Positions 35,786 to 61,195 of a stretch of DNA of 64,000 nucleotides are shown piece by piece. Below the pieces are notes generated by a model that saw nothing but the letters and a program-made list of their open reading frames with translations, made no database searches and had not been told where the DNA came from. Position 1 is the stretch's first letter; every line of letters starts with the position of its first letter. The DNA is from Candidatus Binatia bacterium (GTDB taxonomy: Bacteria; Desulfobacterota; Binatia; HRBIN30): the NCBI GenBank assembly GCA_937925685.1, contig CALAMI010000002.1, forward strand, positions 186,001 through 250,000, written 5' to 3'. The translations under genes were made by a program, and so were the position numbers.

Positions 35786-38700
35786 TCAACGTGGTGTCAG
35801 TGCATCCAAGAGTTCGAGGAATGCGGTGATGTCGGCCGCACTGACGCGCCCGTCGCGGTTGACGTCGGCTTCGGGCACCTCGGGAATCTCATGGAACAAA
35901 ACGGCGAGGAGCGAGAGAAGATCGTCCTCGTCGACCATCCCATTGTTATCCACGTCGCCGACAAGGTACAGCGCTGTTGGCGTAGAGCTAGGAGTGCGCG
36001 TGGGCGTCCGCGTGCGCGTGGGGGTGGGAGTACGCGTGGCGGGGCGAGTAAACGTAGGAGTCGGAGTGCCGGTGGTCGTGGCCGTGGGCGCGGGGGTGAG
36101 TGCACTGCCGAGGAAAAATGGTGCGTAGCGGAGTAGATTCGTGGTGGCCGGTCCACTGGAACGTGGGCGACCCTCCCAACAGAAAGCCAGCGTACTCACG
36201 ATGACACGCCCATTGCCGTAAACATATTCGGCCATGCTTGGCCCATCGCTGTTCCGGAGCAGAACGATGGCCTCGGTGGGAAGGTTCGTTAGGATGCCTT
36301 CGTCGGTGCGATTCCACGCTTCAAAGTCCGTTTCCGACAGTCGCACGCCGCCAAAGCCTTCCCCCGTAAAGTAAGGATGGTCCGGGGCTTCGATCTCTTC
36401 TGCATCGTGGCTTGCCACGCGACTGTAGCCGACTCCACCCGGAGCGATGTTGTTTTGGTCGTTGAAGCGGCCACCGGCGTGGATCACAGCCACACCACCA
36501 TCGGCCACGAAGCGCTCGATCATGCCCCCGGGCGACACCAATCGTTGGAGCACAAGGTAATCGTCCAAACTCAAGTCAGGGGCAACGTAAATCACTTGGA
36601 ACAACTGCCGTTGAAAGAGCGGATCTTGGCCTTCGATTTGCGTCAGGGTTGCCACTGCCCCTTCGAAACCGAGAGAGCTTGCAAGATCGAATACGCATGA
36701 GAACTGGTTCATTCCGGATCCAAAGAGGAAAGGAATTTTCGCTGCAGGAGTCGGTGTGGAGGTGGGTGGCGAGCTGGTCGCAGTGGGGGTGGCCGTGTTT
36801 GTTGGAGTGCGCGTCGGAGTTGGCGGAACCAGAGTCTGCGTTGCCGTCGGGCTTGGGGTGGAGCTCAGGGTGGGGGTAAGCGGTGGCGTCGCCGAGGGGG
36901 TCGGTGTCGGGGTACTCGAAGGTGTCGGGGTTCCAGTCGAACTCGGTGTTGGAGTCCTGGAGGGCGATGGGGTTGGCGTTAGTGATCGCGTTGCCGTGAA
37001 GCTGGACGTCGGTGATGGGGTCGGAGTCGGTGGAGGAGAGGAGGTGGGAGTGTTGGAGGGGCGCGGCGTCGGAGTCAAACTCGGGGTGGCCGACAACGAT
37101 GGCGTCAGCGTAAACGTGAGCGTTGGGGTGGTGCTCGCGGTTAGGGTGGGGGAGAAGGTGGGCGTCGTTGACGGGCTCGGCGTGATCGAGGGGCTCGGGG
37201 TGGATGTTGGGGTTTCGGTAAACGTCAGCGTCGGCGACGCGGTGAATGTCAAGGTGAACGTCGGCGTTGTCGAAGGGCTGGACGTGGGCGTAGGACTTGG
37301 CGTGGGTACCTCCCAGCACACTTCTACCCACACGCTGGTGGTACGAACGGTGTCACCGCTGCCAACTTGGTGCGCCACCCCTGCTTGCATGCGGTTGATG
37401 TCTGCCCAGGTCCACTCCGCACCGAACGCAGGGTTCAAACAAGGCGGTGGGCCAGGCGTGGGTGCTATGCGCTGACAGAAGCGCTGCGAATAGTCCGCGT
37501 ACTGCGTCGTGAGTGCACGTGCTGGACCTTCGAAAATCGTGCTCGTTCCCCCTCGCAGCAACGGTGCCGCGGTGCTGCGGGGGCTGCCGGTGAGCGACCG
37601 AGACACAACGTGAACGTCCACGGACACGATGCGCTCCGTGCGCGCGCTGACGTCCTCGATTTGGTACATATCGATCCGTGGGCCGAGCGCCGCCGTATCC
37701 TGGTTGAAGAATACAAAGGTTGCGTCACCGTCGTCTCCGGCAACGCACTGCCAATTTTGCGTACAGTTGAAAGCAAAGTTTGCCGGTGCTTCCGCTGAGC
37801 CGTTTGGTGCCAGGGCCATGCAGTTGGGGCCCGAGGTGGGAAAGGCAATGGGCGTGTTCGTCGGCGTGGCCGTGGTTGTGGGAGTAAGTGTAACGGTAGG
37901 AGTCATGGTGAGGCACGCACCGCCAACACACAGGGCACCGTAAACCGCCGTGGCCCCCGGGGGGCAGGCGCTGCTTGCCGGCACTCCGCAAAAAAGTTGA
38001 GAGCCCGACGTGAGTTGGCAGCAATCGTTGGGTCCCAACGTTGGAGTCGCTGTAGGGGTAAAGCTCGGAGTCGGCGTAACGGTCGCTGTGTGCGTCAGGG
38101 TAGGCGACCGAGAGGGGCTGAACGTTGGGGTAAACGTGGCACAAGCTCCCGTTTCCAAACAGGTAGCCCCGTAAACGATCACTCCGGGCCCACAGTCATG
38201 ATTGACCGGTGCGGCACAAGCAAGCTGCCCCACCAGGACCACTTGGCAGCAGTCGGACTCCCCAGGGGTTTGGGTGGGTGTGGGGGTGATGGTTGGCGTG
38301 GGAGTCACACTTGGAGTTTGTGTGATCGTAGGTGTGAGCGTTCTCGTCGGCGTCAAAGTGTTCGTTGGCGTCGCCGTCCGCGTCGGCGTGCGTGTGGGAG
38401 TTGGAGTGGAAGTCGCGGTGAGTGTCAGCGTTGGTGTTGCTGTGGGTGAGGGCGTGTGGGTAGCCGTGTACGAAGGTGTCGGGCTTGGGGTGAGGGTGGG
38501 TGTCGCAGTCAATGTGGGGGTGCAGCTTGGCGTCGGCGTAAACAGCACGCACGTGCCTTGGACACAATCGGCGTTGGGGACAGGGTCGCAGCCCAGCCCG
38601 CAGTTGCCCTGCGGATCGGACATCCCGCAGAAGGAAAACACGGCGTTGTTCTCGTCGGTAAAGACACAAAGGCAACACACCGTGTCGCCGGCGGCCCGGG

Positions 38701-49887: not shown

Positions 49888-52074
49888 CTAAGGCGCGAAC
49901 GGGTCGATGATTCGCGGTGCCGGCTCTTCCAACGCCGAGCGTAAAAATGCAATTCGCTGCCGGCGTGCCTCTGCTGCAGCTTGGGCACAATAGTGCCCTT
50001 CACTACCAATGGTCGCAGGCAAAGCTGTACAGCCGGGAGTCGGTGGCAGCTCGGGAATGCCCGTGGGCACGAACTGGAAAAATGCAGCGGTGGTGTGTTC
50101 GTCGATATTTCCTTGCACTGGGCCGTGAACCACCGGCAAGAAGGGTACTCGGCGTTGCACGGGGGCTAGGTGGGGAATAGGTCCGATGAGCCAAGCCAGC
50201 GCCTCGGTGGTGTGGTTGGGCACCAGAGAATCGTCCAGGCCTTCCGTTATGAGGATGCTCGCTTTCTTGCGGGTCCCCAGAACTTCCAGGGGTTGGCGAT
50301 ACAGGAATCGCCCGTGGTTGTGTTCGTCTTGTCGGTCGAACCCGTGCTGAAACAGCGACATTGCCACCCAAATGTCGGCCGCAGTCATATTGGGGAACAC
50401 TTGACCTAAAAGGCGAACGAAGTCGTCGGGGCGCTGGTGAATCAAAGTCTCTGTTAAGCGAGCACCGCCGACGACCAATGCCGCCGCGCCGATTTCCGGC
50501 GCGTAAGGCAATAGTCCGGGGGCATAGTTCGCGCCTTGGCTAATGCCCACGTATGTAAGAGGGGACGTGGGATCGACGTCGGGAACGCCGTCGGGAGCAC
50601 CCACGGGCAAAACATCGAGGGAGTGTAGGCTCTTCAGGAGCCTCAGAAAGGCAAGCTGCTCTGCGTTCAGCTCTACCCAATAGTCAGGGATACGTCGATT
50701 TTGCACCAGGGCGAAGAATACAGCCGTGACTTGCCGCACGATGGCTTCTTCTTGGTTGGGAGCGCCAGCGCTGACTTCGCGGTTCAAGTTGTCCGTGAAA
50801 CCGGCCACAGCGAAGCCAGCACCCGCGAGGTAATCCCGGGCCTCGTTGGGCACCTCCCGTTCTGCGCTCCCAGGATTGCCGTGTTGGTACATGGTAATGG
50901 GCACGGGCCGCTCCAAGCTCGTTTTCGGTAACGCCAGCACAAAACCCACACGGTTTGTTTTCGTCTGCCACGGCTGACCGCTCGAGTCGCGGGCGAGATA
51001 CAACCCATCGCGCCAATCCGGAGCCTCCCAGCTGCCGCGTACGATGGCCGCCACCGCGCTCGTGGGCGACGATTCCGCGGTCACGGACGAGATCTCGAAG
51101 CGCGGCGGTGGCGCACTTTCTATTTGCGCCTTGATTGCCAGAAGATCCGCGGCGATATCTTCCATGCTGCGCACGGAAATGCGCACCGCCAGGGCGGCCG
51201 TGGCCGCAAGTGCAGGCTCACGCTCGGCGACCACGGCGAGAACTTCCTGGCTCAGGGTCCGCACTTGACGTAAAGCGACACTGTCGTCGCTTCGTTCCGG
51301 GCCGAGCGCTCGCCGGAAGAACGGCGAGGGCCGAAACCCTTCGCCGGTCACCGACCGCAGTGGTGCTCCGATAACCAAGCCATAACGACCCCTGGGTGTG
51401 AGCGAGATCGACGGGAAAATCAGCAGACTGTAGCTGCGGATGCCCAGCACGCTGACGTCATCGCGCACCAGCACCCGGAACGGAACGCGCTCACCGAAGG
51501 TGGGCGAGCCCGGAGTGAGATCGAAAAGCCCGATGCTGCTTCCCCGCGCTAGCGACGCAGCGGGCGAGCGCGGAAGCGACTCTAAGTCGGGAGCTTCGCT
51601 CAACTCGACGACGAAGTGAGCAATCGGGCTGAAACCATCGAGGCGATTGACCTCTTGGAGGAGGATTCGGAAAATGCCACTCACGTCGGCCGTGGCTTGC
51701 GGTGGAGCGACGTTCAGTCGAAATCCGCTGCGCTGACGTGAATCCTCGACAAGCCAAAAGTCGTCGGGGAAGGGGTTGGTGCGACGACGATCGTCACGGT
51801 CGTAGTACACTAAGGGACCGGGGCATCCTTCCAACAACGCTCGCACCGCCCGCACGATTTCGTCTACGGTCACCTGGTCGTCGCGGTTCACGTTTACGGC
51901 GACGCAAGCGGCGAGCGACTCCTCTTGCAGCAACATGCGCACGGCCAGAACAACTTCATCGACACTGACCTCGCCATCACCGTTGCAGTCGCCAGGACAC
52001 ACCGCATGGGCAGGTGGCAGCCCCAGCGCCAGTAAAAAAGCCAAACCCCATACGGTGCGAACGCCCCGAGACAT
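49888..52074 (-). CDS. Secreted dockerin-like / alpha-beta hydrolase protein
   Basis: I choose the ATG at 52074 (MSRGVRTVW), with AGGAGA upstream; an ATG 144 bases earlier is less likely. The product has 728 residues. A signal peptide (about 1-23) is followed by a Cys-flanked dockerin-like pair (CPGDCNGDGEVSVDE, then NVNRDDQVTVDE, ending EGCP). A long hydrolase-like part has the nucleophile elbow YVGISQGANY and late Asp/His candidates. It is probably extracellular and may be a lipase/esterase or peptidase-type alpha/beta hydrolase. It is divergent from the decahaem gene. Confidence 0.78.
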   Translation of the reverse strand: MSRGVRTVWGLAFLLALGLPPAHAVCPGDCNGDGEVSVDEVVLAVRMLLQEESLAACVAVNVNRDDQVTVDEIVRAVRALLEGCPGPLVYYDRDDRRRTNPFPDDFWLVEDSRQRSGFRLNVAPPQATADVSGIFRILLQEVNRLDGFSPIAHFVVELSEAPDLESLPRSPAASLARGSSIGLFDLTPGSPTFGERVPFRVLVRDDVSVLGIRSYSLLIFPSISLTPRGRYGLVIGAPLRSVTGEGFRPSPFFRRALGPERSDDSVALRQVRTLSQEVLAVVAEREPALAATAALAVRISVRSMEDIAADLLAIKAQIESAPPPRFEISSVTAESSPTSAVAAIVRGSWEAPDWRDGLYLARDSSGQPWQTKTNRVGFVLALPKTSLERPVPITMYQHGNPGSAEREVPNEARDYLAGAGFAVAGFTDNLNREVSAGAPNQEEAIVRQVTAVFFALVQNRRIPDYWVELNAEQLAFLRLLKSLHSLDVLPVGAPDGVPDVDPTSPLTYVGISQGANYAPGLLPYAPEIGAAALVVGGARLTETLIHQRPDDFVRLLGQVFPNMTAADIWVAMSLFQHGFDRQDEHNHGRFLYRQPLEVLGTRKKASILITEGLDDSLVPNHTTEALAWLIGPIPHLAPVQRRVPFLPVVHGPVQGNIDEHTTAAFFQFVPTGIPELPPTPGCTALPATIGSEGHYCAQAAAEARRQRIAFLRSALEEPAPRIIDPFAP
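51820..51999 (-). other. Dockerin-like Cys-flanked pair in the hydrolase gene
   Basis: This stretch codes for two Ca-loop motifs (GDCNGDGEVSVDE and VNRDDQVTVDE) with Cys at both ends and in the middle. The same layout occurs at the N-terminus of the decahaem cytochrome. Confidence 0.7.
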
Positions 52075-52299
52075 GCCTTTTCTCCTACCATTAATCGCCG
52101 TCGAGAGACAAATCGCGTTTTTGCCTAAGTCGCCCAAAATCCCCTTCACGGCTTTCTCAAGTCGTGGCAAAAGCATGTCGTCCCATCGATCGTGAGCGTA
52201 GATGCTGATGAGGAGCAAAGGATGTTCAGGGAAACAGCGAGAACACGGCGTTGGGTGACCGCGTTGGCGTGCCGATGCGCGTCCAGGGGGAGAAACATC

Positions 52300-54765
52300 A
52301 TGGCGAACAGAGTGTGTTCCAGGGGCATGCTGTCGTGGATGTGCGCTGTTGCGTTGCTACTTGGATCCCAGCTTTCCCTGGCGCAGGCCGCATGCGTTGG
52401 AGACTGCAGCGGCGATGGCAATGTGACAGTCGACGAGATCGTGAACGCCGTGAATATTGCTTTGGGCACCGCGAGTCTCAGTACCTGCCCTGCTGCGGAT
52501 GGCGATAACGACGGTAGCGTCGTGATTACCGAGATCTTGCAAGCGGTGGTGGCTGCATTGGAAGGTTGCCCCGCTCTCTCGCCAACCCCCACGCAAGTGC
52601 CGACGACGCCAGAGACGCCGGCGGCAACACCAACGGCTACAGCGACGCTCGCACCAACGCAGGCGGAATCCCCCACCCCGACCAGCTCTCCGACCCCCAC
52701 GGAGGTGGTGTTACCGACTCCGGTGGGTCAGGGGGTGAAGTCCGCCATCGTCGATGCCAGCTTTGGCGACGATGGCCGCCTGCGCGTCACCTTTACGCTC
52801 ACCGACGACGCCGGGGCTCCCTTGCGACCCGTGTTGGCAGCGACGCAAAACCCGCGGGAAGCACGCATTCGCCTGACGGTGGCACACATCGAGGAATACT
52901 CTGCAGGCGGTGAGTTTGGCCGCCAGTTCGATCGGTATGTCAATGATATAAACCGGACTCGGCCGGCGTACGATTCCGGCGGTACCTTGGAAACCTTGGA
53001 CGGGAGTCGCGGCCTGTACCGTTACACCTTCCGCCATGCCGTCGATCGGGTAGTGGAGGATGCCACATACACTGTGGCGATGCAGGTGGACCGTTTGCTG
53101 GACGGGGCGCAACGGAGCTCGAACCCGGTGTTCGACTTCGTGCCAAACGGCGGTGTGCCGCGGGTGCGCGCTGGCAGCACGACCGCGCAGTGCAACAATT
53201 GTCACGATCCCCTTGTAGCCCACGGCAATCGCCGCGAACTGCGTTTGTGTGCCGTCTGCCACACGAATGAGTCGGTAGACGAGCTTGGGCGCAGCGTCGA
53301 CTTGGGCGTCATGGTGCACAAGATTCATCGCGGGAAGGAACTGCCATCCATTGTCGACGGTCCCCCAGGGACGCAGTACGCCCTCTACAGTAGTTTCCTC
53401 CGCCGGGATATCGTGTTCGCCGAAAAGCGTTCCGACGGCCGCGTCGTGGGCGTGGGGTTCCCACGGGCTATCGAGCACTGTGCGGTATGCCATAGTGAAG
53501 GGCCCACGGCCAACTACCATATCACGCGCCCGAGCACGGCCGCGTGTGCCTCGTGCCATGACGACGTCAATCCTTCCACGCAACCGACCGCGGCAGGGCC
53601 CCCGGGAACAAAGCACCTTGGGGGACGGGGTTTTGAAGACGGTGATTGCGCGTTCTGTCACCAAGCAGACTCTGGCCGCGAGTTCGATGCCTCCGTGGCC
53701 GGTGCCCACGTCGTGCCCGGACGGTCGCGGCAGCTTGCCGGATTGGTGGTAGAGATCTTGGGACTGACCGACCACCTGGCGGGCGAAACCCCTACAGTGG
53801 CCTTCAAGGTGACGGAACGGGACGGCGCCGCATTGAGAGACCTTTCTGGCCTCAACCGCGTGGCGTTTGCCCTCAGTGGTCCGACCATCGAGTATTCCCA
53901 CATGCTCGTGGGCACGGCTGTGGGCGGAGGTGCTGCAGGTACGCTGACGGGCCCGGACGAGAATGGCGCGTTTACCTACCGGTTTCCGTTCCCCATTCCA
54001 GCCCAGGCGCGCGGCACCTGGGCGTTGGGCGCCGAGGCCCGACGGCAGGTTACACTTCAGGCGGTGGCACCGATCGAGGCAAAAGTTGTGCAGGAGGCAG
54101 CGCGCAATCCAGTGATCACCTTCAGTGTCGACGGATCGAGCCCGGTGGTCCGCCGTGAAGTGGTAGACGAACGACTGTGCTCGAGCTGTCACGGCGAGTT
54201 TTCCGTGGACTTCAGTGTGCATGGGAACTTGCGCAACACCATGGAGTACTGTGTCATGTGCCACAACCCGGACCAGACGGATGTAGCCCGCCGCCGTCGC
54301 GACGCTCAGGCGGTGGCCGCCGGGGATGCGACGGCGAGCATCGACATGAAAGTGCTCATTCATAAGATTCACACGGGGAAGGAGCTGGCTCAGAAGCCTT
54401 ATGTAGTATACGGCTTCGGGCTGCCTCCTCTCGGCTTTACGCGCTTCGATTTCTCTGAGGTGTTGTACCCGGGTGATCGCCGTAATTGCCGTACGTGCCA
54501 CTTGCCAGGAACGTACTTGATTCCGCCGTTTCCTGGACCGGCCCGCGGAGCGTTGCTCACGCGCCTCGACCCAGCGACGGGCAACGAAGTTGTCGTTGGC
54601 CGCGAGGGGCCGACGACTTCGGCTTGCACTTCATGTCACGACAGCGAGGTTGCTCAGGCTCATGCGGCGACGCAAACGACCTCGTCAGGGCACGAGGCGT
54701 GTGCCGTCTGCCATGCCGAGGGGCGCTCCTTCCCGGTTTCGGGGGCGCACGCGCGGGTATATTGA
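52300..54765 (+). CDS. Dockerin-like/OmcA-MtrC decahaem c-type cytochrome fusion
   Basis: The ATG at 52300 has GGGGGAG upstream. The product has 821 residues. It has a signal peptide (about 1-30), then a Cys-flanked dockerin-like pair (about 31-91: CVGDCSGDGNVTVDE and DNDGSVVITE). A Thr/Pro linker (about 92-145) follows, then an OmcA/MtrC-type domain with ten CXXCH haem motifs: CNNCH, CAVCH, CAVCH, CASCH, CAFCH, CSSCH, CVMCH, CRTCH, CTSCH, CAVCH. MVHKIHRGKEL is typical of the family. No lipobox is seen, so it is secreted rather than lipid-anchored. It probably acts at the outside of the cell, passing electrons to or from an acceptor. It heads a seven-gene cluster. Confidence 0.9.
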   Translation: MANRVCSRGMLSWMCAVALLLGSQLSLAQAACVGDCSGDGNVTVDEIVNAVNIALGTASLSTCPAADGDNDGSVVITEILQAVVAALEGCPALSPTPTQVPTTPETPAATPTATATLAPTQAESPTPTSSPTPTEVVLPTPVGQGVKSAIVDASFGDDGRLRVTFTLTDDAGAPLRPVLAATQNPREARIRLTVAHIEEYSAGGEFGRQFDRYVNDINRTRPAYDSGGTLETLDGSRGLYRYTFRHAVDRVVEDATYTVAMQVDRLLDGAQRSSNPVFDFVPNGGVPRVRAGSTTAQCNNCHDPLVAHGNRRELRLCAVCHTNESVDELGRSVDLGVMVHKIHRGKELPSIVDGPPGTQYALYSSFLRRDIVFAEKRSDGRVVGVGFPRAIEHCAVCHSEGPTANYHITRPSTAACASCHDDVNPSTQPTAAGPPGTKHLGGRGFEDGDCAFCHQADSGREFDASVAGAHVVPGRSRQLAGLVVEILGLTDHLAGETPTVAFKVTERDGAALRDLSGLNRVAFALSGPTIEYSHMLVGTAVGGGAAGTLTGPDENGAFTYRFPFPIPAQARGTWALGAEARRQVTLQAVAPIEAKVVQEAARNPVITFSVDGSSPVVRREVVDERLCSSCHGEFSVDFSVHGNLRNTMEYCVMCHNPDQTDVARRRRDAQAVAAGDATASIDMKVLIHKIHTGKELAQKPYVVYGFGLPPLGFTRFDFSEVLYPGDRRNCRTCHLPGTYLIPPFPGPARGALLTRLDPATGNEVVVGREGPTTSACTSCHDSEVAQAHAATQTTSSGHEACAVCHAEGRSFPVSGAHARVY
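52390..52572 (+). other. Dockerin-like Cys-flanked pair in the cytochrome gene
   Basis: This codes for the two Ca-loop motifs and their flanking Cys at the N-terminus of the decahaem protein. It matches the module of the divergent hydrolase gene at protein level. Confidence 0.7.
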
Positions 54766-54867
54766 TTGGAGGCAGCCTGGCCTAACCTTTGGCGCAGCCG
54801 CCCCCAAGTGTGCTCCCACAACTTTGCGGAGGGGCACGAAAGCAAACGAACGGTGCCAGTAAGGTGC

Positions 54868-56205
54868 ATGGGATTGCCGCGAAGATTCGTGCTCGGGTGG
54901 GCTGCAGTCTTGGTGCTCCGCGCCGGCGAGCTGCACGCCCTTGAGTTTTCTGGCGCCGCCCTGGTCAACAGCCAATTGCGGGAGCGTGAAGGCGCGGCTG
55001 CGATCGAAGCTCCGACCAACGCGTATGGCGCCCTGATCGGAACGAATGTGCATCATGGGATTGGCGGGGAGACGTACTTCCGCCTCGAGCGCGACTGGAG
55101 CCGAGCCGACGGTGCGTCGGACTTTTACCTCGGTTTTGCTCGTTTGCCCCTCCGTGGCTTCGAGCTTTCCTTGGGGCGGCAAGTGCTCGATGAGCTGCCG
55201 GGTGCGCTGTACGTTGTCGATGCAGGCCGCTTGCGCTTCGACCGGGGCGGCCCTGTGGGCTTTTCCCTATTCGGGGGCCAACCTCGCTACTTCGAGCCGC
55301 TCCAAGGCGCAGAGCTGGTTTCTCAGGATGAGCAAATGTTCGGTGGCTCTGCTCGGTTACGGTGGGTTGCCCTTGGGCAGGTGGTCGTCAGCTTTGCACA
55401 ACTGCAGCGGCAACAGCGGCGCCTTAACCAGCTCGGCAGCGCCACTTGGTCGCACACCTTCCGCCACCTGCGCTCGCAGCCACAAGCGTACGCTTTGGCC
55501 GCCTACGACAGCGCAGAGCGCAACGTACAGCAGGTTACCACGGGCGTTGGGCTTCTTCCTCATCCCCGCGTGTTCGCCCGCATCGAAGGAAGTTACTATC
55601 GCCCCTCCAGTCGTTCTCCCGCTGCTCTGCCGGGTTTGGACCGTTTTGTCGATCCCCTGTTTTCCCTGATTTCTGCAAGCAGCCTGCAGCAGGCGCGCTG
55701 TGGAGTCCAGTATCGATGGCGAGAGACGGTTTGGTGGTCGGCGGATTACGGGTTGCAAGCGTTCGAAGACTCGAATGGCCAGTCGATCACGGGGAACCGT
55801 GGCAGCGTCGGGCTGGTGTGGCTGCCCGAGGGAGATGGACTGGAGATCGTTCGATCGGAATTTGGGGTGACGGACAGCCGTGGAGGCAGTTTATTTGCCC
55901 TGCGGGCGTATTACGAAAACCGCGTCTATCAGCGGATTTTGTTTCGCACCAAGATGGAAGTGGGCCGGTTCGACAAGATCACCAATGAACAGGACATCGT
56001 TGTCACCAGCCGCGTCGGTGTGGCATACGAGTTAGCGCCAGGGTTCCTGATGGAGGTCAACGTCGAAGGGAATCGCTCGCCACGATTCGATTACGAGTTC
56101 CGCCTTGGAGCTTTCCTGACCTACAACCTACATTACCGCGATGGTTGGCAAGCGCCCAGCCTCGAGCGGCCTGTCCTGCGTTATCCGGGAGGCTGGGCAG
56201 GGTGA
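54868..56205 (+). CDS. Outer-membrane beta-barrel (porin of the cytochrome conduit)
   Basis: I choose the ATG at 54868 (TAAGG upstream). The product has 445 residues with a signal peptide (about 1-24) and then alternating hydrophobic/polar strands with aromatic ends (FYLGFARLPL, VGLVWLPEGDG, FRLGAFLTYNL), so it looks like an outer-membrane barrel. Its size is closer to Geobacter Omb-type porins than to MtrB (about 700). The next gene's GTG overlaps its stop. It should form a sleeve through which the haem proteins pass electrons; strand count is not attempted. Confidence 0.75.
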   Translation: MGLPRRFVLGWAAVLVLRAGELHALEFSGAALVNSQLREREGAAAIEAPTNAYGALIGTNVHHGIGGETYFRLERDWSRADGASDFYLGFARLPLRGFELSLGRQVLDELPGALYVVDAGRLRFDRGGPVGFSLFGGQPRYFEPLQGAELVSQDEQMFGGSARLRWVALGQVVVSFAQLQRQQRRLNQLGSATWSHTFRHLRSQPQAYALAAYDSAERNVQQVTTGVGLLPHPRVFARIEGSYYRPSSRSPAALPGLDRFVDPLFSLISASSLQQARCGVQYRWRETVWWSADYGLQAFEDSNGQSITGNRGSVGLVWLPEGDGLEIVRSEFGVTDSRGGSLFALRAYYENRVYQRILFRTKMEVGRFDKITNEQDIVVTSRVGVAYELAPGFLMEVNVEGNRSPRFDYEFRLGAFLTYNLHYRDGWQAPSLERPVLRYPGGWAG

Positions 56206-56855
56206 AGTACCCGGACTGGTGGGCTGCCATTCTTTGCGCCCTACTCGTCAGCGGTGCGATCGGCTGCCGCAGGTGGCTACCGACGACTTCTTACCTCCAG
56301 CCGCGTTCTGATTCGGTCTCTCGTCGCAGCACGCGCGATGCTCGGGAACGTTTCGATCACCAGCTTCACCGCAAGGCACTGCGGGCAAAAGGAATAGCCT
56401 GCATCGATTGTCACTCGTTCGCCTTACGCATCGAAACCGATGACGAGGATCTTGCCAAAACATTGTCGGCTTATGCGCTCCACCCGCGCAGTGCAGCTTG
56501 CCACTCCTGCCATTTGCCTGGGCAGCAGAAAATGTTCGCTGCACCGCGACAATGCCTTTCGTGTCACCGCAACCTCTGGCCGCTGTTGCCCGATGACCAC
56601 CGTGCTGGCTGGCAGACAGCACACGCGGTGGCATCTCATGCGGACACGGAGCGTTGTCAGGATTGCCACCACCAGCAGGAATGCGTGGATTGTCACGCTC
56701 GCCGCGATACGCTCGATACCCGGGTCCACGAGCGTGGATTCCGTTTCTTTCATTCCATCGAAGCGTGGGCAAATCCGATGCAGTGCAGCAGTTGCCATCG
56801 GGCAGATTTTTGCATTCAGTGCCATCGGTTGAGTGGTGTTCGAGGGGCAGGATGA
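56202..56855 (+). CDS. Seven-haem lipoprotein cytochrome c
   Basis: GTG at 56202 overlaps the previous stop. The product has 217 residues. The leader ends in SGAIGC, a lipobox. Seven haem motifs are seen: CIDCH, CHSCH, CLSCH, CQDCH, CVDCH, CSSCH and CIQCH. Extra His residues (DHQLHRKAL, HQQECVDCHA) may be axial ligands. It is probably a periplasmic face partner of the barrel, like MtrA or Oma proteins in position though shorter (MtrA has ten haems). Confidence 0.85.
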   Translation: MKYPDWWAAILCALLVSGAIGCRRWLPTTSYLQPRSDSVSRRSTRDARERFDHQLHRKALRAKGIACIDCHSFALRIETDDEDLAKTLSAYALHPRSAACHSCHLPGQQKMFAAPRQCLSCHRNLWPLLPDDHRAGWQTAHAVASHADTERCQDCHHQQECVDCHARRDTLDTRVHERGFRFFHSIEAWANPMQCSSCHRADFCIQCHRLSGVRGAG

Positions 56856-57160
56856 GGCGAGTTGCACCTTGGTTCCTTTCCCTCCCTTTGCTTTTCGGTT
56901 GTGGCGAGGAGGCGGCCCCGTCAGGGGAAAACTACGGTAATTTGCTCGAGTCGCCAGCCGGGCTCGTACTCATTCCTGAGGAACATCCCTCGGGATGGGG
57001 ACGTGCGGATTGCTTTTTTTGTCACCCCGCCCACAAACTCCATGTGGTCAACCGCACGGGAATCGCCGATCTGGATCTCGGCTTCGTTCGCAGCGTCGTG
57101 CGTCAGCGAGGGGAGGCGAGTTGCGCTGCGTGCCATGGGGACAACGGGGTTGGACGATGA
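56852..57160 (+). CDS. Two-haem lipoprotein
   Basis: The ATG at 56852 overlaps the previous stop. The product has 102 residues. The leader ends in LLFGC, a lipobox. Two haem motifs are seen, CFFCH and CAACH, about 45 residues apart, with a few possible axial His residues (HPAHKLHVV). It is a small electron carrier or a link in the conduit. Confidence 0.8.
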   Translation: MRRVAPWFLSLPLLFGCGEEAAPSGENYGNLLESPAGLVLIPEEHPSGWGRADCFFCHPAHKLHVVNRTGIADLDLGFVRSVVRQRGEASCAACHGDNGVGR

Positions 57161-57729
57161 GGCCGGTCGAGTTTTTGCTCTTGGCCGTATTCTTGGTGAC
57201 TACAGCTTGGGGACTGGGGAACGAGGAAAACCCCCATTGGATGCTGCGGTCGGACGGGGAACCGGACGAGGAAAAGTGCGCAATTTGCCACGACGAAGAT
57301 AAGAACCTGCTTTCGTCGAAGGAAGAAACGTGTCTCAGCTGCCACGAGCGAACGCTGCACAGTGGTTCGGAGGAACACTTGCGCGCAAGTGCAGCACAAG
57401 TGCAAACGCTGCTACCTCCGAAAGGGAAATACGGAGTGGAGTTTCCGCTTGCTGAGGACGGAAGGATGTATTGTGGCACCTGCCACCTCTTTCACGACCC
57501 ACGCGTAGACGAGGTCACCCTAGCCGCTCCCCGCACGCTGCCGAGCGAAGGGATCGCTTGGGAGATCCGGCAAGCAGTGGAGAGGCAAGTGCGCGCCATC
57601 CTGGCTCTGCGACCAGAGTCCGAAGTGCAGTGGTCGTTTGCGCAGGAGTCCACTGGGTTCCTGCGTCTGCCGCTGACGGAGAGCGAGCTTTGCGTGGCTT
57701 GCCACGAACGAGAGGGGAACGGTCGGTGA
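57157..57729 (+). CDS. Four-haem periplasmic cytochrome c
   Basis: The ATG at 57157 overlaps the previous stop. The product has 190 residues with a signal peptide (about 1-20). Four haem motifs are seen: CAICH, CLSCH, CGTCH and CVACH. The stretch MYCGTCHLFHDP resembles doubled-CXXCH-type proteins. The next gene overlaps its stop. Confidence 0.82.
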   Translation: MRPVEFLLLAVFLVTTAWGLGNEENPHWMLRSDGEPDEEKCAICHDEDKNLLSSKEETCLSCHERTLHSGSEEHLRASAAQVQTLLPPKGKYGVEFPLAEDGRMYCGTCHLFHDPRVDEVTLAAPRTLPSEGIAWEIRQAVERQVRAILALRPESEVQWSFAQESTGFLRLPLTESELCVACHEREGNGR

Positions 57730-59696
57730 AAATCTTGCGCGCTGCCCTGGTGGTAACGTTTGCCATCGTGCCCGGATGCGGCGACCCCGGGGCACCGCAG
57801 TACCGCGGAACGCCCCCCCCGATTGCTGCAGCCTTTGGTACGTGCGCCTTCTGTCACACGGAGCAAGCTCAGGGAATGCTGCCCACGGCGGCAAGCCTCA
57901 CCTGCTCCACATGTCACCCAGACGCGATACCAGGTTTCGCAGGCCGCGGACACCGCGGCGTTCCCGGGCCCGAACTCGTACCTTCCTTTCCCCGGTTCGG
58001 CCACCAACTCTTCGCGGAGGAGTCGTTTGGCTCGTGTTCCTTTTGTCACCATTCCACTGCCGTTCGCATCGTTTTGTATCGCGACGCGCTGGGTTGCGAA
58101 ACTTGCCATGTGACCGCACTTACGGCCGGGTTTGGCCCGCACCATCGCACGCTTCCTGATTCGACGCTCGTGCCGAATCCCCCCACCGAGCCTCACGCGC
58201 CTGGAAGCGAAGGCCTGTGGGGGAACTGTGCGTTGTGTCACAACGAAACCGCGCGGGACCTGCAAGCGCTGTTGGGTGCGCCCTATGCCCTCCATTGCAG
58301 CACCTGCCATGTAGAACGCACGCCGGGTCAGTTCGGCGCCGCTCATGCCAGCCTGCCGACGAGCGCCGTGGTGCCGAACCCACCCGTGCGGGCGCATCGG
58401 CCCGCGGCGGAGCGTTCCTGGGGCGCATGCGTCCTGTGTCACAACGAAGCTGCACGCAGCTTGCAGGAAGCTTTCGCCGAGCCACAGGAGGTTGGCTGCA
58501 CCACTTGCCACAGGGAGCGTACTCCTGGCCAGTACGGTGTTGGTCATGCCAGCCTGCCGACGAGCGCCGTGGTGCCGAACCCACCCGTGCGGGCGCATCG
58601 GCCCGCGGCGGAGCGTTCCTGGGGCACTTGCGCCCTGTGTCACAACGAAGAAGCGCGCAGTTTGGAAAGCTTGTTGGGCCCGCCCGATGAAGTGAGCTGT
58701 GAAAGCTGTCACGCCGATCGGTTGCCCGGAACCTTCGAACCAGGACACCGGGCGCGACCCTCTCGAGTTGTTGTGCCTGATCCTCCAGCACTTCCACATC
58801 GCCCCGGTACGGCCGCCGCCGCATCAGGCAACTGCGCGTTGTGTCACTCCCAGGTGGCGACCAACGTGGCGCCGTTCGTGGCCGAACTGAACTGTGTCGT
58901 GTGTCACGAAGATGGCAGCGGAAAACCATTCGGTCCGGGGCACCGGCAGAAACCGCAACCCACTCTTGTACCCGCATTCGTGGGCGCGGATCATGCTCCT
59001 GGCCTGGGGCAAAGGTTCGGTGTTTGTGTGTACTGTCACCGTGACATTGCAGAAAACATTGCGACCAGCGAGGCCGCTGAATTGGGATGCGTCCTGTGTC
59101 ACAACACGCAGCTCGGTAACTTTGGCCCTCAGCACCGGTCCTTACCGGGGCGCGATTTGGTGCCAAGTTTCGTCGGGAGAGCTCACTGGAGCGGCGAGCA
59201 GCGCGTGTTCGGTACTTGCAGCTTCTGCCACCAGGCGACTACCGATCGCGCACTGCGGTTGACCCATGGTGCCTTGGGTCTGCAGTGCCAGCAGTGTCAC
59301 ACCGAAAGCACGATGGAGCAGTACGGAAAAGGGCACCAATCCATCACGGCCTGTGTCGTTTGTCATGGAAGCAGCCGAAGCACGCATCAGGATCCCGCCC
59401 GGGGAACCGACTACGAGTGCGCGAACTGCCACGAGCCTCACGGGAGTCGAAACTTGTTCCTCATCCGCGAGTTCATCGCGACTCCAACAGGTCAACTGCG
59501 GGCGATTCGCTTCGAAAACTTACGTGGACACGACGACGCGGGGTTTACCAGCATGACCCAGCCTGGGACGGGCTTGTGCGAGGTTTGCCATACCACCACG
59601 CGCTTCTTTCGCGCCAATGGTACGGGCGAGGAGCACTTCGATTTCCCGTGTTTTACTTGCCACCCCCACGCTTTGGGATTTTCGGTAAGACCATGA
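57726..59696 (+). CDS. Twenty-haem tandem-repeat c-type cytochrome
   Basis: GTG at 57726 overlaps the previous stop (GTGA). The product has 656 residues. The leader ends in IVPGC, a weak lipobox. Twenty CXXCH motifs are seen, mostly in pairs within repeated modules of about 67 residues, each with a pattern like N-C-A-L-C-H-N-E, then C-x-x-C-H, then a conserved Pro-rich link (VVPNPPV or similar) with extra His residues. Two modules share an identical 82-bp DNA block. It could form an extended wire or bridge across the periplasm or outside. Closest known types would be the doubled-CXXCH and long multihaem cytochromes. Confidence 0.85.
   Translation: MKILRAALVVTFAIVPGCGDPGAPQYRGTPPPIAAAFGTCAFCHTEQAQGMLPTAASLTCSTCHPDAIPGFAGRGHRGVPGPELVPSFPRFGHQLFAEESFGSCSFCHHSTAVRIVLYRDALGCETCHVTALTAGFGPHHRTLPDSTLVPNPPTEPHAPGSEGLWGNCALCHNETARDLQALLGAPYALHCSTCHVERTPGQFGAAHASLPTSAVVPNPPVRAHRPAAERSWGACVLCHNEAARSLQEAFAEPQEVGCTTCHRERTPGQYGVGHASLPTSAVVPNPPVRAHRPAAERSWGTCALCHNEEARSLESLLGPPDEVSCESCHADRLPGTFEPGHRARPSRVVVPDPPALPHRPGTAAAASGNCALCHSQVATNVAPFVAELNCVVCHEDGSGKPFGPGHRQKPQPTLVPAFVGADHAPGLGQRFGVCVYCHRDIAENIATSEAAELGCVLCHNTQLGNFGPQHRSLPGRDLVPSFVGRAHWSGEQRVFGTCSFCHQATTDRALRLTHGALGLQCQQCHTESTMEQYGKGHQSITACVVCHGSSRSTHQDPARGTDYECANCHEPHGSRNLFLIREFIATPTGQLRAIRFENLRGHDDAGFTSMTQPGTGLCEVCHTTTRFFRANGTGEEHFDFPCFTCHPHALGFSVRP
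58343..58424 (+). repeat. 82-bp exact direct repeat, copy 1
   Basis: This block is identical to 58544-58625, 201 bp (67 codons) downstream. It codes for a His-containing linker between haem pairs in the 20-haem protein. Confidence 0.9.
58544..58625 (+). repeat. 82-bp exact direct repeat, copy 2
   Basis: This is the second copy of the block at 58343-58424. The 201-bp spacing keeps frame and equals one two-haem module, so a recent duplication or conversion is likely. Confidence 0.9.
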
Positions 59697-61195
59697 GTCA
59701 ACGGCCATCTTTGTGGGGTAACCCCATTTCCGTTGCCGGCTGGATTCTTGCTGGGGCGGCTTTTGCCTGTTTCGTTTTTCTGTGGCTGTACGATACTTTT
59801 GCCCCGGGCCCTTCCGCTCCCTACGCGGGCATCGTCATCTTCGTGATCACCCCAGCATTTTTGTTGCTCGGCCTGGCCTTGGTCGTCATCGGGTGGTGGT
59901 GGAGTTGGCGGCGTTGGCGGCGTACCGGAGTGGCATGGGCTCTTGTCTGGCCGGTAATCGACCTCAATCGTGCGGGAACGCGTGCGGCCGTCGCCTGGAT
60001 CATGGGGGGTGGCACCGCGTTTCTTTTTCTTTCCGCATTCGGTGCCTTTCAGACATACAAAATCACGGAATCGGTGACCTTTTGCGGTGCCCTGTGTCAT
60101 CAGGTCATGGGACCCGAGTATACCGCGTACCAGGTTTCACCGCATGCGCGCGTGCTTTGCGTAGATTGCCATGTGGGTTCAGGGGCGAATTGGTACATCC
60201 GCTCGAAGTTTTCCGGGTTGCGCCAACTGCATGCGTACGTCACCGACAGCTACTCGCGGCCCATCCCGGTGCCGATTCACAACTTGCGGCCGGCCACGGA
60301 GACTTGCCAAACCTGCCACTGGCCCGAGAAGTCTTATGGGATTGTTGGCCGCCGTTATGTGTACTTCCTGGCTGACGAGTCGAACACTCGCTGGGAAACC
60401 GACCTGGAGTTACTCATTGGCGGAGGGCGTCCAGGTACGCCAACGACCGGAGGAATTCACTGGCACATGCAGTTGGAAAACATAGTGGAGTACGTGGCTC
60501 GCGATCCTTCGCGGTTAGCGATTCTGTGGGTGCGGGCGACCAACCGCGCTACGGGTGAAAGCGTTCTCTATCGGTCCCCAGAGGCGCACGGCGACCCCCC
60601 GGCTGACGCTGTCTGGCGTACGATGGACTGCATGGATTGCCACAATCGTCCAGCTCACCGGTTTCAGTCGCCACGCGATGCGGTCAACGCGGCCATGGCT
60701 GCTGGGTTGCTCGACCCGCGCCTGCCCGCACTCAAAAAGGCTGCCATCGACCTCCTCGCCGAGGAGTACGGCGACACGATTACTGCCCTAGCTGCGCTCG
60801 ACCACGGCCTGCGTACCTTTTACCAAGAGAATTTCCCCGATCTTGCGAAACACGAGAGTGCGACGATCGATCGGGCCGTTGGGGAGCTGCAACGAATTTA
60901 CCGAGAAAATTTTTTTCCCGAAATGAAGGTGCGTTGGGATGCTTATCCCTCGCACGAGAGCCATTTGTTTTCGCCCGGCTGTTTCCGGTGTCACGGCGGA
61001 CAACATGCCGCCAGCGACGGAAAACTCATCCGCAGCGAGTGCAATTTGTGCCACATCGTTCGCGCACAAGGGCCTTCGGGGCAAAAAGTGTACTCCACCA
61101 CTGACACGGGGCTCGAGTACGAGCACCCGGTAGACGTCGGTGCCGACTGGAAAGAGTCTCCCTGCTACGAGTGCCACTCTGGGGCTGCGCCGTGA
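59693..61195 (+). CDS. NapC/NirT-type membrane-anchored multihaem cytochrome
   Basis: The ATG at 59693 overlaps the previous stop. The product has 500 residues. Three transmembrane helices are near residues 14-33, 45-70 and 98-120. Haem sites are CGALCH (Cys131-His136; a CX3CH variant as I recall in NapC/NirT relatives), then CVDCH, CQTCH, CMDCH, CFRCH, CNLCH and CYECH, seven in all. The segment PEYTAYQVSPHARV is typical. It should take electrons from (or give to) the quinone pool and hand them to the periplasmic chain. It ends the operon. Confidence 0.88.
   Translation: MSQRPSLWGNPISVAGWILAGAAFACFVFLWLYDTFAPGPSAPYAGIVIFVITPAFLLLGLALVVIGWWWSWRRWRRTGVAWALVWPVIDLNRAGTRAAVAWIMGGGTAFLFLSAFGAFQTYKITESVTFCGALCHQVMGPEYTAYQVSPHARVLCVDCHVGSGANWYIRSKFSGLRQLHAYVTDSYSRPIPVPIHNLRPATETCQTCHWPEKSYGIVGRRYVYFLADESNTRWETDLELLIGGGRPGTPTTGGIHWHMQLENIVEYVARDPSRLAILWVRATNRATGESVLYRSPEAHGDPPADAVWRTMDCMDCHNRPAHRFQSPRDAVNAAMAAGLLDPRLPALKKAAIDLLAEEYGDTITALAALDHGLRTFYQENFPDLAKHESATIDRAVGELQRIYRENFFPEMKVRWDAYPSHESHLFSPGCFRCHGGQHAASDGKLIRSECNLCHIVRAQGPSGQKVYSTTDTGLEYEHPVDVGADWKESPCYECHSGAAP

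Follow-up and report, generated by a model that had tools for sequence, protein, structure and literature searches.

OmcA/MtrC-family cytochromes of the outer surface have been described as lipoproteins. When Shewanella produces OmcA and MtrF that lack the lipobox, the two proteins end up in the medium, according to the accessible part of the report (PMC6929479), so that another holder would be needed for a protein of this kind. Cohesins and dockerins, best known from cellulosomes, are already known outside them as well. In the available portions of the papers on anaerobic methanotrophic (ANME) archaea and their sulfate-reducing partners, such proteins were suggested to fix other proteins to the outer layer (PMC9012536) and to play a role in adhesion (PMC10553843), and a possible role in cytochrome adhesion was suggested for the ANME archaea (PMC5244752); the same portions name substrate-binding proteins, S-layer and adhesin domains, and a fusion of a dockerin with a decahaem cytochrome appears in none of them. 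The 64 kb window considered here, that is, the whole stretch of DNA that was analysed, is part of the genome of a Candidatus Binatia bacterium (contig CALAMI010000002.1; a draft assembly of 3.70 Mb and 51 contigs, with a completeness of 95% and a contamination of 3.5%), and it encodes at 52300-54765 (+) a decahaem cytochrome whose N-terminus carries a four-Cys, dockerin-fold module. The bacterium probably belongs to the order HRBin30 within Binatota, an order with genomes from thermal springs, as far as the accessible part of the source goes (PMC8262859). On balance, we lean towards the reading that a non-cellulosomal cohesin-dockerin surface system holds this electron-transfer cytochrome where its relatives use lipid.

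The open reading frame of the cytochrome has its best start at the ATG at 52300 and comprises 821 codons, with the stop at 54763-54765. Its product matches TIGR03507, the OmcA/MtrC decahaem family, over residues 157-817 (356.7 bits, cut-off 209.3) as well as PF22113 (164 bits), and it contains ten CXXCH motifs; by the family match and the motif count together, the product is an OmcA/MtrC-family decahaem cytochrome. The protein begins with a predicted signal peptide region (residues 1-31, 52300-52392 (+)), which ends ...LSLAQAA and in which the lipobox pattern is absent. The module follows directly (residues 32-90, 52393-52569 (+)) and is defined by a genome-wide family, an AlphaFold2 model and structural matches. 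Behind it lie a Thr/Pro/Ser-rich linker of 54 residues, recognised from its composition (residues 91-144, 52570-52731 (+); Pro, Thr and Ser make up 65% of the 40 residues C-terminal of the module), and the decahaem core with its ten CXXCH motifs and the stop (52732-54765 (+)). The 59 residues of the module read CVGDCSGDGNVTVDE...C...DGDNDGSVVITE...EGC, with Cys at module positions 1, 5, 32 and 59, and its two calcium loops, DCSGDGNVTVDE and DGDNDGSVVITE, both keep their ligands. An earlier reading of the window made from the DNA letters (hereafter the original prediction) had proposed a Cys-flanked pair of calcium loops and a Thr/Pro linker at this N-terminus, which is borne out both by the sequence and by the genome-wide family; the range it gave for the module, residues 31-145, took in the linker, and the folded part is confined to residues 32-90.

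Used as a query against the whole genome, a 62-aa stretch gave 50 matches with E<=0.01, and the strongest of them apart from the query itself had E=6.4e-18; the module is therefore no chance resemblance. Profile searches of the fetched loci, with duplicates removed, yielded 50 modules in 49 open reading frames, and the module is a genome-wide tag, which lay beyond the reach of the original prediction. Thirty of the 50 copies finish no more than 20 residues before the C-terminus, 15 are N-terminal (starting no later than codon 200 of the open frame and well away from its end) and five are neither, as counted on the fetched loci with leaders judged by eye. In an alignment of 34 full-length copies of 59 residues, the four Cys and two Val are present in every copy, and Glu 15 and Glu 47 in nearly all, while both calcium loops keep their ligands in 24 of the 34 copies under a strict rule. 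The module is also strongly symmetrical, its two halves being 48% identical in the decahaem copy; averaged over the 34 copies, half-to-half identity is 50% at an offset of 32 residues and does not exceed 13% at any other offset between 20 and 39. In both halves, conservation extends past the calcium ligands to helix positions. Some copies outside this alignment are shorter, are without one Cys or have an insertion.

The proteins that carry the module are diverse. A Pfam scan that covered 41 of the 49 carriers (E<=0.01, and E<=1 for two genes of the window) found trypsin and matrixin proteases, lipase/LCAT-like hydrolases, several beta-propellers, FG-GAP proteins, DUF3604 and a laminin-G domain. 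Among the redox carriers are, besides the decahaem cytochrome itself, a dihaem MauG-like protein whose gene adjoins that of MbnP and a cytochrome P460 that also has NHL repeats. Many carriers match nothing but weak EF-hand or dockerin models, and no glycoside hydrolase or carbohydrate-binding-module family was found in the 41 carriers at the thresholds used. At the MauG locus (L026, 4347-5801 and 5705-6730, (-)), the dihaem protein has a C-terminal module, and the neighbouring MbnP carries, close to its N-terminus, no more than the second half of one.

The fold of the module was predicted with AlphaFold2 from four sequences, two from the window and two from locus L079, and the best model reached a predicted local distance difference test score (pLDDT) of 95.8 and a predicted template modelling score (pTM) of 0.80. 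In a Foldseek search of the PDB with this model, the first 18 rows were all dockerins (best E=0.031, template modelling score (TM) 0.69), while calmodulin-type chains gave a TM of about 0.36. All 25 entries shown by VIA-align were likewise dockerins, with Z from 7.0 to 2.3 and the highest value reached over 59 residues; a Z below 8 would not by itself prove kinship, and the fold call rests on every row being a dockerin. Several results speak against a dockerin assignment. Two of the five AlphaFold2 models were poor, with pLDDT of 54 and 52, as against more than 93 in the other three, and no Foldseek match reached E 0.001. The Pfam model Dockerin_1 (PF00404) gave no match in the decahaem protein at E<=1, and EF-hand proteins ranked before any dockerin in sequence searches of the PDB with a single copy or a profile; for the profile, the EF-hand protein 2jnx had E=3e-5 and the best dockerin, 6kge, E=0.0074. 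Two four-Cys copies passed the PF00404 cut-off of 22.9 bits in the genome scan (24.5 and 23.9 bits), and when rescanned as whole proteins they scored 22.9 and 19.3 bits. The EF-hand model PF00036 also gave no match in the decahaem protein and 14.8 bits in the divergently transcribed neighbour (cut-off 25.4), and one other copy (L019) passed it with 26.9 bits. EF-hand was rejected as the better label since, although such proteins lead the sequence search, the predicted fold is that of a dockerin and unlike calmodulin. The profile check suggested by the original prediction thus returned neither family for the decahaem protein, and by its predicted structure the module is a dockerin-fold module that is not filed under PF00404. 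The wording "dockerin-like" is upheld by the predicted fold, by the structural matches and by the cohesins encoded in the same genome.

The closest described relatives are the type I dockerins (PF00404), such as those of C. thermocellum and CaDoc0917 of Clostridium acetobutylicum (6kgc_B), with which the module shares two calcium loop-helix repeats in the dockerin arrangement, a length of about 60 residues, a place near protein ends and strong internal symmetry; its VIA-align Z against 6kgc_B is 6.9. Unlike these, the module has four Cys that are invariant in 34 copies, and its decahaem copy lacks a Dockerin_1 match. Loop position 12 is Glu in 32 of the 34 copies in each half, where classical type I dockerins have Asp. 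Disulfides between the Cys probably stabilise the module. Type I dockerins have two similar halves and dock in two orientations, as stated in the accessible part of the source (PMC12484212), and the similarity of the two halves of the module would likewise allow docking in two orientations.

The decahaem protein resembles the lipoproteins OmcA, MtrC and MtrF in its TIGR03507 match, its ten haem motifs and its porin-like and multihaem neighbours, and differs from them in having the module and linker instead of a lipobox. The lipobox was sought with a PROSITE-type pattern, which found no match in the leaders of the window decahaem and its two genus orthologues; the absence from the window protein had been anticipated by the original prediction. 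Its signal peptide accordingly does not end in the lipobox that marks an outer-membrane cytochrome lipoprotein. Module Cys 1, which closely follows the leader, was considered as a possible lipobox cysteine and rejected, because the pattern fits in none of the three proteins. In three other module copies (one in L025, one of two in L018, L050), Cys 1 does fit the pattern, and these copies may be lipidated. A match in L092 falls within the module, at its third Cys, and further matches (L021, L044) lie at the module end or outside a plausible leader.

Fourteen decahaem genes were found in nine of the 15 genomes of the order, 13 of them with a readable N-terminus. Three carry the module and no lipobox in the leader, and ten carry a lipobox and no module; the three belong to G000 (the window genome), G036 and G058, which are all the genus members examined. 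The nearest named relative, Bacterium HR30 (HRbin30), is 80% identical over the decahaem protein, and since it and G058 are one genome it was counted once. In other genera, the closest orthologues (five loci, 54-59% identical) align only from a point at residue 99-143 onwards, and the module is not part of the alignment; all four with a readable N-terminus have a lipobox and no module, the N-terminus of the G097 orthologue being unreadable. The porin-like gene and two multihaem genes follow the decahaem gene at all five of these loci. A NapC-type gene was found at two of them, in one case on the opposite flank, and the 20-haem gene was found only in part. The three module-bearing proteins form one clade with support of 100/100, and a first tree nested it among the lipobox orthologues, though the support for this was modest (90/88). 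In a second tree, built from other rows, this fork stayed open; forcing the five non-module orthologues into one group costs 4.35 log units, with a p-value of 0.25 in the approximately unbiased test (p-AU). Replacement as a proven event was therefore rejected. The lipobox is likely the earlier state, replaced by the module, because a lipobox is present in all the other readable decahaems of the order; the acidobacterial relatives with neither anchor, together with the p-AU of 0.25 for a sister-clade tree, mean that a true replacement is not proven. The phrase "in place of the lipobox" used in the original prediction hence holds as a contrast with the orthologues of other genera, and as history it is likely but unproven. 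Homologues with a lipobox and without the module, which that prediction had named as evidence against itself, do occur outside the genus; we read the module as an alternative anchor all the same, because all three genus members retain it and its predicted fold is that of a dockerin.

Cohesin-like partners had also been proposed as something to look for, and the genome encodes them. A scan with PF00963 (cohesin) gave seven places at E<=1, two of them above cut-off. An 802-aa open reading frame on contig 24 contains three PF00963 cohesins (93.9 bits, E=1.3e-26, cut-off 24.1), arranged behind a lipobox (...LLAVTASLTGC), a conserved domain of about 200 residues and a Thr/Pro linker. A single cohesin sequence gave no match in the PDB, and a profile of 14 cohesins from seven genomes matched solved cohesins over their full length. 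The best of these was 6kgc_A (E=1.2e-10), whose partner in the same complex, the dockerin of chain B, is among the structural matches of the module. Given the shortness of contig 24 and the 3.5% contamination of the bin, contamination was considered as the source of the cohesins; it was rejected because the first 222 residues of this scaffoldin match a genus relative with 84% identity and paralogues lie on contigs 13 and 16. Proteins that combine a lipobox pattern, the conserved N-terminal domain and cohesins were found in seven genomes from three families of the order (the window genome, G058, G082, G093, G029, G088 and G051), and a similar cohesin protein of G007 has a leader that misses the pattern by one residue. 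The N-terminal domain of the scaffoldin occurs in 12 of the 15 order genomes and, weakly, in one of 130 others, and in some lipoproteins that have it no cohesin was found by the order's own profile.

Other arrangements of cohesins were observed. Directly 3' of the three-cohesin lipoprotein gene, a 171-aa open reading frame (L066 7908-8420, contig 24) encodes a cohesin with a hydrophobic N-terminal stretch, and similar frames are present in G058 and G082. Cohesin and module stand on one chain at L036, L120, L122, L038, L110, L121 and L119, as in adaptor scaffoldins. Adaptor-like proteins at L036 (1742-4246) and L120, from G000 and G036, consist of a leader, a cohesin, about 500 residues of Thr/Pro repeats and a C-terminal module, and in G058 a cohesin and a module share one frame of 859 aa. 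Other genera of the order have large open reading frames with three to five cohesin-like domains (L161-L166), and a similar C-terminal stretch is common to the frames from family f3.

In a sample of 145 genomes of the class, the module was found in all 15 genomes of the order and in none of the 130 others, with at least 44 copies in 13 of the 15, 27 in G076 and 11 in G007. In a sample of the phylum, three of 395 genomes had it, namely two members of the order and one genome outside with a weak copy (E=4.5e-8). Cohesins show a similar distribution. PF00963 at E<=1e-3 found them in 14 of the 15 order genomes and in six of the 130 outside, and the order's own cohesin profile found them in all 15 at E<=1e-4 and, at E<=1e-10, in 14 (the exception being G036) and in none outside; this profile was built from order members, and PF00963 is the fairer test. 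Fisher's test of order membership against PF00963 gave p=5e-14; as the order amounts to a single clade, this value is not used as independent evidence. GspD, the type II secretin, was detected in all 15 genomes, above cut-off in 13, and in control genomes too.

In the mechanism we propose, the module would be a calcium-folded, probably disulfide-stabilised dockerin plug that binds cohesins of the same cell. The decahaem protein would leave the cytoplasm by its signal peptide and cross the outer membrane, probably through the type II system. Having no lipid tail, it would then be held at the surface by inserting its dockerin into a cohesin-bearing anchor, for example the three-cohesin lipobox protein of contig 24, and the Thr/Pro linker would tether it flexibly close to the putative porin-cytochrome conduit, whose genes lie downstream. 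Several findings tell against this proposal. The joint occurrence of module and cohesin is confined to one clade and is hence one event, and six sampled genomes outside the order have cohesins without the module. The genus member G036 has the decahaem with the module, and the three-cohesin lipoprotein was not found in its draft, which is 95% complete; the cohesin-type proteins of G036 that were read have one such domain each, one of them with a second, weak one. Moreover, seven of the nine homologues found outside the order, all acidobacterial (L080-L086), have neither lipobox nor module (of the other two, L087 has a lipobox and the N-terminus of L088 was not read), and the data are compatible with a tree that sets the lipobox orthologues apart as a sister clade, which allows that a lipobox was never there. 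The findings on G036, on the acidobacterial homologues and on the tree would suit a cytochrome that relies on its porin partner for its hold, in the manner of MtrC and MtrB, or that is released; the dockerin module would then serve another purpose, for instance linking it to other secreted proteins or to a matrix. The porin-like gene, which adjoins the decahaem gene at all seven loci compared, could itself provide such a hold, and several cohesins lie in proteins that themselves carry the module (L036, L120), so that carriers could link to each other. We regard this alternative as rather unlikely, as the module occupies the exact place of the lipid anchor in the other readable decahaems of the order (10/10) and lipobox proteins with cohesins, able to do the same work, exist.

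The module could also be a calcium-stabilised end cap that protects or folds secreted proteins and has no partner. Its position near a protein end in 45 of the 50 copies, the invariant Cys and two calcium loops, which suit a stable cap, and the lead of EF-hand proteins among the PDB sequence matches would agree with such a role. However, the model is arranged as a dockerin and not as an EF-hand pair, helix positions are conserved in both halves where calcium binding alone would not ask for it, and one type of cohesin occurs in the same order and in none of the 130 other class genomes at the stricter threshold, and we consider the cap improbable. Still less credible is a sorting or export signal for the type II system or another transporter. 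The occurrence of the module near either end of many unrelated proteins and the presence of GspD throughout the order would fit it, but the secretin is shared with the control genomes, the lipobox orthologues manage without the module, and the module is larger and more structured than sorting tags usually are. A holding of the cytochrome by dockerin and cohesin remains the reading that we favour.

As to the neighbouring genes, the one transcribed divergently from the decahaem gene (49888-52098 (-)) carries the same module at its N-terminus, behind that protein's own leader (51823-51999 (-), an hmmsearch domain), and no Pfam family above cut-off was found in its product. Its module was considered as the donor of that of the decahaem, with which it is 51% identical; some other copies are closer (up to 61%), and it is not evidently the donor. 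Next downstream of the decahaem gene is a porin-like candidate (54862-56202 (+)), proposed from the conserved neighbourhood; it has no Pfam match, and its AlphaFold2 model has a pLDDT of 27.7. Multihaem cytochrome genes follow at 56253-59693 (+), recognised by Pfam, CXXCH counts and synteny, with a small open reading frame between the first two; the counts are seven at 56253-56852, four at 57160-57726 and 20 at 57726-59693. A predicted NapC/NirT-type cytochrome with six CXXCH motifs (PF03264) is encoded at 59696-61192 (+). The HRbin30 orthologue of the 20-CXXCH cytochrome (57726-59693 (+)) has a lipobox-pattern leader, and the cluster is therefore not wholly without lipid anchoring. A second type of dockerin, without Cys, was observed behind a Thr/Pro linker at the C-terminus of another protein of the window (35825-35959 (-)), where PF00404 scores 22.8 bits alone and 24.9 bits with its frame neighbours (cut-off 22.9). 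More Cys-less dockerins lie on contigs 10 and 5, and the two dockerin types may correspond to two cohesin specificities.

With its multi-cohesin proteins, proteins that combine cohesin and module, and dozens of module carriers, the system resembles a cellulosome, from which it differs in that its candidate anchor is a lipobox protein and not one held by S-layer homology (SLH) domains or sortase, and in that the scan of 41 of the 49 carriers brought up neither glycoside hydrolases nor carbohydrate-binding modules. It also resembles the cohesin and dockerin proteins of the ANME archaea and their partners, which are non-cellulosomal and belong to organisms with multihaem electron export. In the literature searched, in which most subscription papers fell outside the scope, no dockerin fused to an OmcA/MtrC decahaem was found, the papers on ANME archaea and sulfate reducers being the nearest, and the four-Cys dockerin family was not described. 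Non-cellulosomal cohesins and dockerins are thus already known, and the dockerin-decahaem fusion and the four-Cys family appear new within that literature. A wider view, which we put forward only tentatively, is that of an order-wide surface-mounting system in which scaffoldins, some of them with a lipobox, would receive four-Cys dockerins numbering in the dozens or perhaps the hundreds, and the cargo of which would be proteases, lipases, beta-propellers and redox proteins and not cellulases. The decahaem of this hot-spring genus would ride on that system, making the outer end of the respiratory chain pluggable and calcium-dependent, perhaps with several cytochromes per scaffold.

A lineage with a dockerin in the place of the lipid anchor offers a direct test of what placement a surface cytochrome needs for its function, and it also tests the role of dockerins outside cellulosomes, which the papers on ANME archaea leave open. 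The four-Cys dockerin and the cohesins of the same genome would, in addition, make a new pair of couplers of practical use where redox proteins are to be mounted. For the organisms themselves, the findings suggest a plug-and-socket mounting of respiratory proteins on the cell in one genus of uncultured bacteria.

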